A DNA stretch of 64,000 nt from Sinomonas notoginsengisoli (GTDB lineage Bacteria; Actinomycetota; Actinomycetes; Actinomycetales; Micrococcaceae), in NCBI RefSeq assembly GCF_021554725.1, contig NZ_JAIZDP010000010.1:1-64000 (forward strand). The letters run 5' to 3'. This document shows, in pieces, positions 50,043 through 55,592 of this stretch (its first letter is position 1; each line of letters starts with the position of its first letter). Position numbers and translations under genes: made by a program. The notes below the pieces were generated by a model. That model saw nothing but the letters and a program-made list of their open reading frames with translations, did no database searches and was not told the origin of the DNA.

Positions 50043-50299
50043 CTACTCCGGCTTGTCCCCCGTGAAGATCTCGGTGATCTTGCCGCCGAGGCCCTTGACG
50101 TTCTCGGTCACGTCCTCGACGAGGTCCTTAGCGTGCTGGCCGACGTCACCCGAGAAGAACTCCTTGACGTTCTCGGCAGCACCCGAGGCGAAGTCCTTAC
50201 GTTCTCGGCAGCCTCCGCTGCGAACTCCTTGCCCTTGTCCATCGCGGCGCCGAAGCCGTCCTTCGCACCGTCGGCGGCGCCGTTGTTGCCCTCGCTCAT
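50043..50299 (-). pseudogene. Small helical repeat protein gene with single-base frameshift
   Basis: The frame starts MSEGNNGAADGAKDGFGAAM with a short AENV repeat, then shifts. Reading on with one added base at 50198/50199 gives KDFASGAAENVKEFFSGDVGQHAKDL and an ordered end GKITEIFTGDKPE, total 85 residues. The shift site reads TCCTTACGTTCTCGGC on the plus strand, whereas the second copy of the same repeat (50161-50176) reads TCCTTGACGTTCTCGGC, so exactly one base is missing. Without correction the product ends after 63 residues with an odd Ser/Arg tail. It may be a recent mutation, a phase-variable site or a sequence error. The product resembles small stress-induced helical proteins; family not identified. 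Confidence 0.65.
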
Positions 50300-50405
50300 T
50301 CCTCTACCTCCTGTCCTGGCCGGTCAGGGCCGCACTGGGGTGGGCGAGAATGCTCCCCATGCACTCAACGTAGGCGGCTGCCCAGGTTGGTTCAAGGTGG
50401 CCGAG

Positions 50406-51050
50406 TCAGCGGACGCGCTCGGCCCGGCTGAACCTTGCACGTGCACCCGAGGTGATGTGCACAAGCACGGGTGCCGAGAAGCCCATGACGAGTTCAAGTC
50501 CGCTGACTATCCGCTCGACGTCCGCGGCGATGGCGCCGGGATCGGCGCCCTGACGCGCCACCAGCCTCACCCGCAGGGACGTCCGTCCCTCGAAATCCAG
50601 CGCGACAACGCTGCTGCCGAGCACGTCCTTGCGTGGCGCGAGAGCCGTTCGGACAGCCTGTTCGACTGCTGCAGCGGCGATGCTCACCCGCCCCGGCGCC
50701 TCGCCGAGGGTGAACTCCCCGCCCGGCCCGGCACCGCCGTCCGGACCGGTCGAGGCTACGAGGTCCCGGCGGCCTTTCCCCTGCTGCGCGACCCACCAGA
50801 CCATGAGGAGCTCGATGACGATGGCGGCGAGCGTCAGGAGCAGCCACAGCCAGGACACCCTCGTTCCGGCAACCCGGGACCCCTCGAACACCGTGCCCAC
50901 CGCTTCCGCGGCGGAGGGCGCCCATCCATGCCACCACACGGCGATGAAGGGGATGGTTGCCAGCAGTACGAGCAGGGCGCCCGCCATCAGGACGGCGAGC
51001 CCGAAAAGGAAGATGAGAACTCGGTTGAGCGCCCGCGGGGTGCCATTCAC
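50406..51050 (-). CDS. amaP: AmaP-like alkaline shock membrane anchor protein
   Basis: A 214-residue protein with two N-terminal spans (RVLIFLFGLAVLMAGALLVLL and WLWLLLTLAAIVIELLMVWWV) separated by a 45-residue loop with HGWAPSAAEAVGTVFEGSR, then a cytoplasmic domain (RVSIAAAAVEQAVRTAL, SLRVRLVARQGADPGAIAADVERIV). This is the AmaP arrangement, which in Gram-positives anchors Asp23 to the membrane. GTG start, four-base overlap with the preceding gene. Last gene of the five-gene operon. Confidence 0.82.
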   Translation of the reverse strand: MNGTPRALNRVLIFLFGLAVLMAGALLVLLATIPFIAVWWHGWAPSAAEAVGTVFEGSRVAGTRVSWLWLLLTLAAIVIELLMVWWVAQQGKGRRDLVASTGPDGGAGPGGEFTLGEAPGRVSIAAAAVEQAVRTALAPRKDVLGSSVVALDFEGRTSLRVRLVARQGADPGAIAADVERIVSGLELVMGFSAPVLVHITSGARARFSRAERVR

Positions 51051-51673
51051 GCCCCGACCACCCCCGCTCCCTCGACACGCACGCGCAGCTGCGGATACGG
51101 CGCCGGTCGCAGCCGCATGAGTTCGTCCTCGGTGGCCGTCAGCACATCCTCGGCCCGGACGGGGATGCCCGACGTGGGCCGGACAATGACGATCGCCTCG
51201 CGCTCGGTGATCACCACGGTGACCTGCTCCGGGCGCACGAGTGCCGCTGCGCGCGCCCGGCGGGCGAGCGTGGAGGCGAGCACCTCGTCGTCGACCACGA
51301 CGGCGATCCGACGGCCGGGCAGCGATCGCCTCCCCCGCCGTCCTGGTGTGAGCGCAAGGACGACCAGGAAGAGGCCCACCATGGCGATCACGCCGCCGAT
51401 GAGCCCAAGCAGACCGCGGTTGACTCCCTCGGGCAGGCCCGCCACTCTTCGGGCGGCGGTTTCGGGGTCGACGAGCCACGCTGGCTGGCCGAACGCCTGG
51501 AGCGTGGATTCCAGGAGCACGTACGCACATCCGATGGCCACGGCAAGGGCGACGAGACCCGCCACGTAGGCACGCGAGGAACTCGTCTCGCGGCGCACGG
51601 CAGATTCGAGTCCGTGCTCGGATGCGCCCGGCCTGATGGCACCTGGGACCTGGGTTGCGGACCTCTCAGCCAC
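51047..51673 (-). CDS. DUF6286-type membrane protein
   Basis: A 208-residue protein with two spans (AYVAGLVALAVAIGCAYVLL and GLLGLIGGVIAMVGLFLVVLAL) separated by a short loop with ESTLQAFGQPAWLVDPETAARRVA, then a cytoplasmic region including SLPGRRIAVVVDDEVLAST and VTVVITEREAIVIVRP. This is the DUF6286 pattern that accompanies Asp23 and AmaP in actinobacteria. GTG start with GGGGGAG seven bases upstream, although it overlaps the previous gene by eight bases. Likely a membrane partner in the envelope-stress complex. Confidence 0.75.
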   Translation of the reverse strand: MAERSATQVPGAIRPGASEHGLESAVRRETSSSRAYVAGLVALAVAIGCAYVLLESTLQAFGQPAWLVDPETAARRVAGLPEGVNRGLLGLIGGVIAMVGLFLVVLALTPGRRGRRSLPGRRIAVVVDDEVLASTLARRARAAALVRPEQVTVVITEREAIVIVRPTSGIPVRAEDVLTATEDELMRLRPAPYPQLRVRVEGAGVVGA

Positions 51674-52115
51674 GGCCTGGCTCCCCCGCCGGTGCGAACG
51701 CCGCGATGGGGCGTCCGACCCGAACCCCGGAGATACGGAGGTCCACTCGCGAGAGCGTCGCCCCACTGAGTCTCGAGACGGACTCGAGGATGCGCCCTTT
51801 GGCTGACGCCGAGCGTTCCCACACGCTCCCACCCCACACGTGGAGATCGTCGGGCCCCACCACATCTGCCAGCGGCGGAATGGCAACGGGCGCCGTGAGG
51901 CGGAGGGCGAGCAGGCCGGCGTCGTCCGTCCAGTCCGCCCGAACGTCCGAGGGCCGGACGCCCAACTCAACCGCGGCAGCAACCTTGGCGAGGATGGTCA
52001 GCGCCTCCGTGCTCACGCGGTTGAGCCCCGCGTGCATTCGCTCTGCTCGAGGCTCGTGCGACGGCGGTGGGGGAACCGAGTGCGGGTCGCCTTCGGGGCC
52101 GGGGAGCGAGTTCAC
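51666..52115 (-). CDS. Asp23-like domain protein, unassigned
   Basis: A 149-residue soluble protein in the middle of the operon. After a Pro-rich N-terminus it has helix-rich ALTILAKVAAAVELGVRPSDV, then alternating strands (AGLLALRLTAPVAIP, LSRVDLRISGVRV) that suggest an Asp23/Gls24-like fold. I cannot name the family with confidence. GTG start overlaps the small membrane gene's stop by four bases and no ribosome site is present, so translation is coupled. Confidence 0.65.
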   Translation of the reverse strand: MNSLPGPEGDPHSVPPPPSHEPRAERMHAGLNRVSTEALTILAKVAAAVELGVRPSDVRADWTDDAGLLALRLTAPVAIPPLADVVGPDDLHVWGGSVWERSASAKGRILESVSRLSGATLSRVDLRISGVRVGRPIAAFAPAGEPGRG

Positions 52116-52303
52116 GAGGAGGATCGCCGCCCGAGCAGAGCCTCCCAGACGCTCCGTAGATCGAGGCGCCCCTCGGCGGCACGGCCGAGGACTGCGCCGA
52201 CAAACATGAACACGAGGGACCCAAGGAAGCCCCACACACCGAACTGGAAGGACATGAACGCGAGGAACGCCCCCACACCGATGCCTACGACGACCAGATT
52301 CAC
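52112..52303 (-). CDS. Small membrane protein of the Asp23 operon
   Basis: A 63-residue protein with two spans, NLVVVGIGVGAFLAFMSFQF and GFLGSLVFMFVGAVLG, and a short charged cytoplasmic end (RAAEGRLDLRSVWEALLGRR). It overlaps both neighbours by four bases (GTG start). Actinobacterial Asp23 operons often contain a small membrane protein of this size; its role is not known. Confidence 0.75.
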   Translation of the reverse strand: MNLVVVGIGVGAFLAFMSFQFGVWGFLGSLVFMFVGAVLGRAAEGRLDLRSVWEALLGRRSSS

Positions 52304-52770
52304 TGCACCTCGATTCCGGGCTGCCTGACGCCCTGACGTGCCTCCCCGATGAAGACATCGGTGATCTCGACGTTGACTTCGATGACCGTCAGCCCGGTCA
52401 GCCCCTCGACCGCACGGTACACCGCCGCCCGGACTGCATCTGCCAGCTGCTGCAGTGGAACGCCGTACTCCGCCACGAGCGTGATGTCGACGGCGGCCTG
52501 CTCCTGCCCGACTTCTGCACGGACACCGGCGGCGTGGTCGCTCGGCGTCTGGACTACGGCATCGCGGATGGCCCCGAGCGCGCGGGACGGTGCCGTGCCG
52601 AGCGAGTGCACGCCGGGCACCTCGCGGGCTGCTGCGGCAGCGACCTTGGCAACGGCGGCCTCATGGACGACCGTCCGCCCGGTCGCCGCGGGATTCTCGG
52701 TGCCGCGCACTTGGGGGTATCCGGCGGCGTGCGCGGGCCCCTCCCCCATGGCGCCTGGTTGTTGGGTCAC
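52300..52770 (-). CDS. Asp23/Gls24 family envelope stress protein
   Basis: A 156-residue protein. The Asp23/Gls24 domain runs from TVVHEAAVAKVAAAAAREVPGVHSLG to AVYRAVEGLTGLTVIEVNVEITDVFI. In Gram-positive bacteria Asp23 gathers at the membrane, bound by AmaP, and mutants show cell-wall stress. The GTG at 52770 is chosen for its GGAAGGGG site; a GTG at 52797 is in frame but weaker. First gene of the operon, behind a tandem 15-base repeat. Confidence 0.85.
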   Translation of the reverse strand: MTQQPGAMGEGPAHAAGYPQVRGTENPAATGRTVVHEAAVAKVAAAAAREVPGVHSLGTAPSRALGAIRDAVVQTPSDHAAGVRAEVGQEQAAVDITLVAEYGVPLQQLADAVRAAVYRAVEGLTGLTVIEVNVEITDVFIGEARQGVRQPGIEVQ

Positions 52771-52801
52771 CGTGCCGTCCCCTTCCGCCTGCTGCACCTA
52801 C

Positions 52802-52832
52802 GGGCACCACATTAGTTGGGCACCACCTTAGT
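52802..52832. repeat. Tandem 15-base repeat upstream of the Asp23 operon
   Basis: GGGCACCACATTAGT (52802-52816) and GGGCACCACCTTAGT (52818-52832) differ at one base and are 16 bases apart. They lie 32-62 bases before the Asp23 start codon, in the promoter region, and may be binding sites for an activator. On the minus strand TAATGT could serve as a -10. Confidence 0.6.
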
Positions 52833-52941
52833 ACGGCCAACCGGCACTGGCCCGGCACGCGCGCCTGTGACAGCATGGCACACAAGAACTCTCACGGATG
52901 GGCCTGGCTGGGGAGCCTCGCACACAGTGAAGGGGAACATC

Positions 52942-53373: not shown

Positions 53374-53850
53374 TCAACCCATCGAGAAGAGGTGAATGAC
53401 GACCCGGTCGGGGTACCGCTCGCCCCTGCCGACGAACAGGGTGCGGTTGACCCAATCCCAGGCCGGCGAGGAGGTCCGCAGGCGCACGGCGCAGCGGAAG
53501 TAGATCTCGGAAGGCGCCACTTCCTCGCCACGGACAAGGCGGGCCATGGCCTCAGGGCTCCCTGAGCGGAGGGCGGCGTTGTCCACCGAGATGATAGCGC
53601 CGTCCTCCGTCTCGATCGCATAGCGCGCCTCAAGTTAGCTGAGCTCGGGCGAGTGGAGGGTCTGGAAGTCCGCCCCGCCCGCCAGGATGCGGCCCGTGAG
53701 GCGCGGGCCGGTGACGGTTCCGCCTGTGATCCCGATGATCCGGCGGTGGCCTTCCGGAGTGGGCCCAACGTCGATCGGCTCCGCGATGAGCACCGAGAGG
53801 GTTCCGACGTATTCGAGGGCAGGCGCCTGTGGGACCGGATTCGAGGTCAT
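53374..53850 (-). pseudogene. DUF3237 family protein interrupted by in-frame stop
   Basis: A DUF3237/UPF0311 gene of 158 codons. The first part MTSNPVPQAPALEYVGTLSV to GGADFQTLHSPELS ends at a TAA (53634-53636), and the same frame continues without a break as LEARYAIETEDGAIISVDN to the true end PDRVVIHLFSMG at 53374. Both halves match the family in order, with normal spacing, so a single substitution seems to have created the stop. DUF3237 proteins are small beta-barrels of unknown function. The gene overlaps the hydrolase stop by four bases and is last in its operon. Confidence 0.75.
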
Positions 53851-55592
53851 GCCCAGGACAGTACCCCAAGGGTGATGCGGCTCGGCGCGCCTCCACCGAA
53901 GTGCACCTGCTGATGTGCCACCAGGGTGTCCGACGAGTCGAGCGCCTTGGCACCCGTGTTGAGGCTTCGGTCCCAGCGCGGGTGGCAGCTCGATGTCACC
54001 TGGACGCGGATGCGGTCGCCGGGCTTGAAGGTGCACGCTGTGGACCAGAGGCTGATGGTGAATTCCTCAACCTGGCCGGGCGTGAGCGGGCGCCGCGGCG
54101 CGCCGGCGCGGAAGACGCCGTCGCCTGCGCACGCGTCGCGCCAGGACGCGCGCACGATTCCGTCGGTGAGCCCCATCGAACGGCCGTCTGGGCTCACCCT
54201 GCAGAGCCGGATCACGAAGTCGGTGTCAACGGCCGATGACGCCGCGAACAGCGTCGCAGTCACGTCGCCGAAGACGGTGAGCGGCTCGGTCAACGGCTCG
54301 GTCGTGAAGACGAGCACGTCATCGCGGGCCTCGACCCCCGACTGCTCGGCAGGCCCGGAGTAGTCGGGACCGAGGTGCATGGTGTTGCCTCCGGCGGTGG
54401 GCACCGGGTCGAGCGGGTCGTAGTCGTAGTCGACCGATCCTTCAGCGCCGCCCTCCCGGCCGAGGGAACCGTCCGCACCGAGGTACAGCTCCACGCGCCG
54501 GCCCGGATCGGGCAGTTCGTCGAAGCCCCGCCAGCGGTTCTCGCCCATGACGTACACGAGGACCTGCGGGAACGTGGGCTCGGGACCGTCGTGCAGGACG
54601 TGGCTGAACCACTCGGCGTGAAGGAATGAGAGGTCCCCGTACGGTCCAACGGCTGCAGCGGACCCACCGGGGAACACCGAGTCGGGGAAGGTGCCCGTGT
54701 AGTTGGTGTGGCTCCATGGCCCGAGGATGAGGCGGGGCTGCGGGACGGAGGGATCCCGACGCGACGCCTCGACCTGAACCCGGTACTGGCCCAGCGTATT
54801 CGGCAGGAAGATGTCGAACCATCCCCCGATGTTCAGGGTGGGCAGCGCGACGGGCTTGGAGCTTGGCCAGTTCCAGGCCTCCGAGATTTCGCCGCCCGGG
54901 TCCTCACCCATGGGGGGGATGACATAGGCCTGCATGAACGTGCTTGCACGGGACTTGAGATCGTTGAGCGGGAGGGTGCCGTAAGCGGAACCGTCGGCGA
55001 ATGAGGCATCGAGTTCCCTCCACGCCTCGAGCTCGCACTGCATCCGGGCAGGATCCGAGGCGAACTCGCGGCGAATCGTCTCGAGCGAGTTCGAGCCGTG
55101 GCCCCAGCCCAGCCTCGAGCCGAGCTCGAATGCCCCTCCTCGGAAGAGGGCACCGTTGTCCGCGTTGCCGGCGGCACAGACCCCTGGGGCCAACGCATGC
55201 AGGCCGCGCGGACTGCGACGTGCGGCACGCCACTGGGTCTCCCCGAAATAGGAGCGGCCCCACATCCCCACCTTCCCGGTGGAGTACGGAAGGCTCGCCG
55301 CCCACTCCACGGCCTCGGCGCCGTCGTCCGCTTCCTGCTCGCTCGGGCTGAACACGCCGTCGGAGCCGAAGCGTCCGCGCACGTCCTGGAGGATGACGAC
55401 GAAGCCGGCAGCTGCGACCGTGGCGGGGTTGAAGTAGGCCGAGTTGACGGAGAGGTCGCGGCCGTACGGGGTGCGGGTCATGAGAACCGGGAAGCGCTCG
55501 CCTTCGGCGGAGGGCCGGTACACCGTCGAACGAAGGATGGTGCCGTCGCTGAGCGGCGTCTCAACGTCGTTTTCAATCAGGACGTTGTGCAT
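53847..55592 (-). CDS. CocE/NonD-family alpha/beta hydrolase
   Basis: A 581-residue hydrolase of the CocE/NonD (S15 X-Pro dipeptidyl-peptidase) superfamily. The nucleophile elbow is GMWGRSYFGETQW; RFPVLMTRTPYGRD opens the barrel, VVILQDVRGRFGSDG carries the oxyanion tyrosine/arginine region, and a C-terminal jelly-roll begins at EPLTEPLTVFGDVTATLF. Such enzymes cleave esters or amides of small acids and amines. It starts one base inside the transporter stop and is probably co-transcribed with it, so the transporter may bring in the substrate. Confidence 0.87.
   Translation of the reverse strand: MHNVLIENDVETPLSDGTILRSTVYRPSAEGERFPVLMTRTPYGRDLSVNSAYFNPATVAAAGFVVILQDVRGRFGSDGVFSPSEQEADDGAEAVEWAASLPYSTGKVGMWGRSYFGETQWRAARRSPRGLHALAPGVCAAGNADNGALFRGGAFELGSRLGWGHGSNSLETIRREFASDPARMQCELEAWRELDASFADGSAYGTLPLNDLKSRASTFMQAYVIPPMGEDPGGEISEAWNWPSSKPVALPTLNIGGWFDIFLPNTLGQYRVQVEASRRDPSVPQPRLILGPWSHTNYTGTFPDSVFPGGSAAAVGPYGDLSFLHAEWFSHVLHDGPEPTFPQVLVYVMGENRWRGFDELPDPGRRVELYLGADGSLGREGGAEGSVDYDYDPLDPVPTAGGNTMHLGPDYSGPAEQSGVEARDDVLVFTTEPLTEPLTVFGDVTATLFAASSAVDTDFVIRLCRVSPDGRSMGLTDGIVRASWRDACAGDGVFRAGAPRRPLTPGQVEEFTISLWSTACTFKPGDRIRVQVTSSCHPRWDRSLNTGAKALDSSDTLVAHQQVHFGGGAPSRITLGVLSWA

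Follow-up and report, generated by a model that had tools for sequence, protein, structure and literature searches.

The five genes analysed here lie in a stretch of 64,000 nucleotides from Sinomonas notoginsengisoli, which we refer to as the window. They are all on the minus strand, run from 52770 to 50406 and overlap successively by 4, 4, 8 and 4 bases (Table 1). Each starts with GTG and stops with TGA. An alternative start of asp23 at 52797 would yield a protein of 165 residues; the start at 52770 was favoured because a GGAAGGGGA stretch sits just upstream of it. The asp23 of the operon is the single match to PF03780 in the whole genome, and the one match to PF19803 (DUF6286) also falls within the operon. 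The first-pass annotation of this DNA had described five overlapping genes with overlaps of 4-8 bases, and all five frames were found at that place. It had also taken the overlaps to imply a fixed stoichiometry of the products; in our reading they suggest translational coupling instead.

Table 1. Genes of the operon and the conserved upstream element (window coordinates)
Feature	Coordinates	Strand	Evidence
asp23, soluble Asp23/Gls24 protein, 156 aa	52300..52770	-	PF03780, 79 bits (cut-off 28), E 4.3e-22
63-aa two-span protein, DUF2273-like	52112..52303	-	orthologue rows against PF10031; two hydrophobic spans
149-aa divergent second Asp23 paralogue	51666..52115	-	orthologue rows against PF03780; hhalign; AlphaFold2
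DUF6286 protein, two-span membrane part and probable cytosolic Asp23-like domain	51047..51673	-	PF19803, 38.1 bits; AlphaFold2
AmaP-like anchor, two spans and probable Asp23-like domain	50406..51050	-	NF033218; wide hhalign
genus-conserved element CGTACTAAGGTRG, possible promoter core	52823..52835	-	14/15 genus loci

The loci with the CGTACTAAGGTRG element include the window and two that are identical. The pattern occurs once in this genome, as does a backward control pattern. Two direct copies of TAAKGTGGTGCCC (52802-52814 and 52818-52830, minus strand) lie upstream of asp23, the second overlapping the conserved element. Directly downstream of the AmaP-like gene (50050-50300, minus strand) there is a small gene with AENVKEF-like repeats, whose frame is interrupted in the window and of which matching pieces were seen in L030, L031, L033, L037 and L041. 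A DUF3237 match at 53374-54036 (minus strand) spans only the second half of the family; the first half, by eye, is in another frame just upstream, and the gene may be decayed or the assembly in error.

Family assignment of the five proteins

Pfam and NCBIfam scans of the window copies alone left the 63- and the 149-residue proteins without a family, and both assignments came from sets of orthologues. The 63-residue protein has hydrophobic spans at 1-19 and 21-39, in agreement with the two-span protein of the first-pass annotation. In its orthologue family 33 of 45 rows match PF10031 (DUF2273) at E<=0.1 (best 1.9e-8). Since the window protein itself falls below the Pfam cut-off (11.8 bits against 25.4, E 0.26), we call it DUF2273-like.

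For the 149-residue protein, 30 of the 55 rows of the orthologue family match PF03780 at E<=0.01 (best 3.7e-10); of the same rows four match FeS_assembly_P and three DUF6286. Third-gene matches in sister genera (e.g. G015, G048, G052) exceed the PF03780 cut-off. The window protein alone stays below this cut-off and matched no Pfam family at E<=1, which is why we speak of an Asp23-like paralogue and not of a Pfam member; an initial contig scan with its sequence alone also gave no matches. When the asp23 and 149-residue families were compared by hhalign, the whole domain was aligned, with an E-value of 7.2e-6 for narrow profiles and of 1.3e-14 (104 columns) for wide ones, the permuted controls giving 0.12 or more. 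Judged from these profiles, the 149-residue protein is a divergent Asp23 paralogue. The earlier suggestion that it is possibly Asp23-like was thus borne out, and the companion claim, that this protein and the 63-residue one are unassigned, gave way to the two assignments. According to one paper, no genome with Asp23 proteins has fewer than two of them (PMC5437119; here and below, papers are cited for their available excerpts). If the 149-residue protein is counted as an Asp23, this genome would fit that statement.

Gene 4 scores above the curated cut-off of PF19803 (35 bits). The window copy of gene 5 aligns to NF033218 (AmaP) over residues 7-198 (model positions 3-165 of 166) with 19.7 bits and an E-value of 5.8e-4. 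This score is below the equivalog cut-off of 55, hence the label AmaP-like; in the orthologue family all 55 rows match NF033218 at E<=0.01 (best 5.3e-27). The charge flanks of the DUF6286 and AmaP-like hairpin proteins are consistent with cytosolic C-terminal domains. Within this domain the AmaP-like protein also contains a less pronounced hydrophobic stretch (181-199), its third.

Relationship of the Asp23-like domains

The wide profiles contained 38-39 sequences each, defined by gene position. The fusion locus L050 was excluded from the narrow asp23 and 149-residue sets and from all wide sets; the wide sets were also without L063, L071 and the loci with a lone asp23, and their 63-residue set contains no row for L067. 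DUF6286 and AmaP aligned along most of their length (4.8e-11 with wide, 5.1e-5 with narrow profiles). The reversed controls of this pair also scored well (1.6e-4 and 0.0046, respectively), which indicates that the transmembrane composition common to both adds to their score. The wide profiles also linked the 149-residue protein to AmaP (6.4e-7) and DUF6286 (3e-5), and Asp23 to AmaP (1.6e-4) and DUF6286 (9.7e-4), the permuted controls of the wide pairs giving, with one exception, 0.048-0.85. With narrow profiles these links were weak or absent: asp23/AmaP 0.0068, 149-residue/AmaP 0.11, 149-residue/DUF6286 0.26 and asp23/DUF6286 0.42, the last pair staying unlinked. As estimated from the alignments, the homology is strong for Asp23 and the 149-residue protein, good for DUF6286 and AmaP, which are homologous two-span proteins, and moderate across the two pairs. 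The C-terminal domains of the DUF6286 and AmaP-like proteins are probably Asp23-like as well. Iterated searches let the families absorb one another and served solely for locating loci, fusions and additional frames.

The AlphaFold2 model of the 149-residue protein (pLDDT 86) has the predicted order alpha-beta-beta-alpha-beta: helix 36-51, strands 59-65 and 68-79, a short helix 90-93, helix 98-117 and strand 121-133. In the DUF6286 model (pLDDT 84) helices 33-60 and 86-108 cover both hydrophobic spans and are followed by two short strands; the last five elements (helix 129-144, strands 151-155 and 159-164, helix 174-188, strand 195-200) come in an order identical to that of the 149-residue model. 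Foldseek found no match to either model below E 1e-3 in the PDB and none under E 1e-3 in a search of viral models, and the Asp23 profile, run against the sequences of solved structures, gave nothing at E<=1. A second structural aligner matched both models to the C-terminal domain of MamM (149-residue protein: Z 8.2, rmsd 2.9, 79 residues aligned; DUF6286: Z 7.3, 2.7, 72) and to PrgK (Z 6.9, 4.2, 80 and Z 7.6, 3.2, 76, respectively). The two models thus appear to fall in the same broad fold class; Z values of this size are common and say nothing of function. Unrelated folds, an outcome considered in the first-pass annotation, appeared neither in the models of the 149-residue and DUF6286 proteins nor in the profiles.

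Twenty-five loci contributed their four domains to a tree (96 columns kept), on which the gene labels need three changes, the minimum possible. Asp23, DUF6286 and AmaP are each set apart from all other domains by a single branch (support 98, 82 and 81, respectively); the 149-residue group is not (two changes), and 39 of the 97 inner branches are open. This sorting by gene position agrees with a separation of the four paralogues earlier than that of these lineages.

Gene order, fusions and distribution

All 14 fetched loci of the genus have the five genes in the same order; L031 and L042, identical over the operon, were both counted. In a family set of 26 loci (window included), chosen for having a match to the 149-residue protein, the order is the same in 25, the remaining locus being the fusion L050. 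The junctions in this set are mostly 4-base overlaps, a lenient count because the start nearest to -4 was picked. Relatives of the 149-residue protein were found in 26 of 58 genomes, that of the window included (genus 15/15, rest of the family 11/21, rest of the order 0/22), and PF03780 in 32 of the same genomes.

A wider scan with an Asp23 alignment confirmed 583 loci, from which 80 named loci were kept. The module is present in 72 of these actinobacterial loci, a figure that is not a population rate because the scan favours loci close to the query. The genera include Arthrobacter, Curtobacterium, Streptomyces, Kitasatospora, Nocardia, Rhodococcus, Lentzea, Corynebacterium and Nocardioides. 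Among the 72 loci, 60 show the full set of five labels in the usual sequence, with additional or split matches in some of them; in two the third gene scores best as Asp23, eight have the 149-residue and DUF6286 genes in one frame, L086 is without the 63-residue gene and L133 without a recognised DUF6286. Six of the eight loci without the module have a lone asp23 with full flanks and two lie at contig ends (in L151 and L152 the contig stops within about 600 bases of asp23). The conserved order in the two sets stands against the other outcome that had been considered beforehand, an order that is not conserved. In the 54 module loci with a clean five-gene read-out (44 of them in the 63-residue set, 25 in the tree) the four junctions are 4-base overlaps in 23, 37, 46 and 42 cases, respectively.

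Two of the loci with the module, L092 and L147, are on contigs labelled Vibrio cholerae 35D and Acidobacteria MAG, probably mislabelled or contaminating. Matches split over two frames, perhaps by frameshifts, were seen for DUF6286 in L078 and for AmaP in L092 and L127.

In an even draw of 197 genomes of the class, Asp23 occurred in 70 and DUF6286 over its cut-off in 67, with 65 genomes having both, five only Asp23, two only DUF6286 and 125 neither (Fisher p 2e-43, the draws for the two families being taken as the same draw). In 62 of the 65, by our reading, the two genes share a contig and are no more than about 3 kb apart; the others are G219, G238 and G313. In a draw of 119 genomes from the phylum, 44 had Asp23 and 14 had DUF6286 over its cut-off, all 14 together with Asp23. 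The module is rarer outside the class, and the pairing of Asp23 with DUF6286 is therefore mostly a feature of the class.

The asp23 and 149-residue genes form one frame in L050 only, where the 63-residue gene was not found. The 149-residue and DUF6286 genes are in one frame in nine loci: five of Streptomyces (L101, L104, L107, L129, L143), three of Rhodococcus and Prescottella (L114, L130, L134), these eight being named loci, and L071, whose fusion carries a PF19803 match. The fusions probably reflect at least three events. For variant architectures, and for these only, a crude gene finder was also used, which missed or misplaced some genes. Between asp23 and the 63-residue gene some loci contain an additional frame for a soluble Asp23-like protein, about 90-130 residues long (L062, L063 and L065 by iterated profile, L067 by eye), and similar extra matches occur in some of the named loci. 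Two genomes of the family have two modules each (G032 with L057 and L058, G033 with L059 and L060). Apparently lone asp23 genes also exist (L048, L053, L064, L073), which implies that Asp23 can act without the module.

Proposed role and comparison with known systems

Fused neighbouring genes are classically taken to signal that their products are coupled physically or functionally, without proving it. The fusion of neighbouring products in ten loci, together with an order conserved across many genera, suggests physical coupling, and on these two grounds the five proteins may form a single complex. The reading that we favour, with a probability of roughly 0.6, is that the operon encodes an actinobacterial Asp23 envelope module. 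One alpha-beta-beta-alpha-beta domain would have been duplicated to give Asp23, its 149-residue paralogue, DUF6286 and the AmaP-like protein. The two soluble proteins and the two membrane hairpin proteins would be produced together with the DUF2273-like hairpin, and through like-with-like contacts the four domains could assemble into a mixed polymer or patch on the inner membrane face. The role of AmaP in Staphylococcus aureus, where it tethers Asp23, would here fall to DUF6286 and the AmaP-like protein, which would hold the coat through the same domain contacts; the tethered coat may buffer envelope stress. The data themselves give the genes, their conserved order, the homologies at the strengths stated above, the fusions and a predicted common fold; complex formation, assembly, stoichiometry, polymerisation and function are what we infer from them.

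In S. aureus, AmaP binds Asp23 to the inner membrane face, Asp23 forms rings without AmaP and filaments in vitro, and cells that lose either protein switch on the wall-stress response (PMC6954212). This species contains Asp23 in very large amounts (PMC5437119); what the protein does at the molecular level is described as not yet clear (PMC6954212). Of the Asp23/Gls24 genes of the actinobacterium Curtobacterium aetherium, one is upregulated at each of the four time points of desiccation and another is raised in drier samples (PMC12029717). One Asp23 gene of Streptomyces venezuelae falls on ethanol shock, a result that the authors consider consistent with what was found in S. aureus (PMC9769785); to us this fall counts against a stress coat.

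The operon could also be an ordinary Asp23 operon in which the genes are only co-regulated: the products would act at the membrane without forming one complex, and the extra paralogues would have separate jobs, for example the control of lipid synthesis, as for Bacillus subtilis YqhY. Asp23 paralogues can indeed differ in role, YqhY being tied to the control of acetyl-CoA carboxylase and the loss of yloU having no effect (PMC5437119), and the apparently lone asp23 genes point the same way. The ten fusions and the order kept across many genera speak for physical coupling, however, and leave co-regulation alone rather unlikely in our estimate. Still less probable is a defined membrane ring, instead of a filament or coat, made by the hairpins and the alpha-beta-beta-alpha-beta domains in the manner of the ring-building domains of PrgK, EscJ and FliF. 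The DUF6286 model matched FliF (Z 6.7) and EscJ (Z 6.5) besides PrgK, which also matched the 149-residue model, but all these values are in the range that the tool regards as common, and cation-transporter C-terminal domains and OsmC-like chains also match. The rings of Asp23 in the S. aureus amaP mutant (PMC6954212), which could be cited for this arrangement, are cytoplasmic and seen with the anchor absent.

Within the envelope-module reading we also consider, more tentatively and at somewhat under even odds, that many actinobacteria possess an ancient, unrecognised heteromeric membrane scaffold made of four paralogous alpha-beta-beta-alpha-beta domains, half of them soluble and half anchored, in which the DUF2273-like hairpin serves as membrane filler, and that AmaP is a membrane-bound Asp23. 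If the last point is true, the anchor would work by copolymerising with the coat that it holds. What surprised us most were the fusions and the probable status of DUF6286 and AmaP as membrane-bound relatives of Asp23. One domain for DUF6286, AmaP and the 149-residue protein would offer a simple, testable idea of how a coat is anchored. Two gene products without a family label are now placed, and the natural fusions indicate likely interfaces.

A literature search, which was not exhaustive and in part covered the best 10-25 of many papers, gave no description of the actinobacterial module. The available excerpts of actinobacterial papers mention only single Asp23 genes or annotations; in those of a paper on the sigma-E regulon of Streptomyces coelicolor the term searched for occurs only in a reference. 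The single paper found to name DUF6286 lists it, in its available part, as a domain of a mercury reductase. In Corynebacterium pseudotuberculosis two hypothetical proteins of the Asp23 family are two locus tags apart (PMC7456259), as genes one and three of the module would be.

The operon is an enlarged Asp23/AmaP system, kept in order in many actinobacteria. The first-pass annotation had held that the actinobacterial system has extra parts, which agrees with the second soluble Asp23 and DUF6286, and that only Asp23 and AmaP are well described in Firmicutes. If taken to mean that Firmicutes have no more than these two, the latter is not supported: in Staphylococcus xylosus a DUF2273 gene is placed between amaP and asp23 (PMC7698506). 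The opuD2-amaP-DUF2273-asp23 operon of Staphylococcus thus also encodes Asp23, a small DUF2273 membrane protein and the AmaP anchor together (PMC7698506, PMC6954212). The Sinomonas operon adds the second soluble Asp23 and DUF6286 and has no opuD2 among its five genes, and asp23 is its first gene, whereas it is the last in Staphylococcus. Gene 4 is a member of Pfam DUF6286, for which Pfam gives no function; our placement makes it an anchor that resembles AmaP and probably bears an Asp23-like domain. Bacillus subtilis likewise has Asp23-family paralogues in one genome, YqhY and YloU, but their genes adjoin accBC and yloV and not a five-gene arrangement of the kind found in Sinomonas (PMC5437119).
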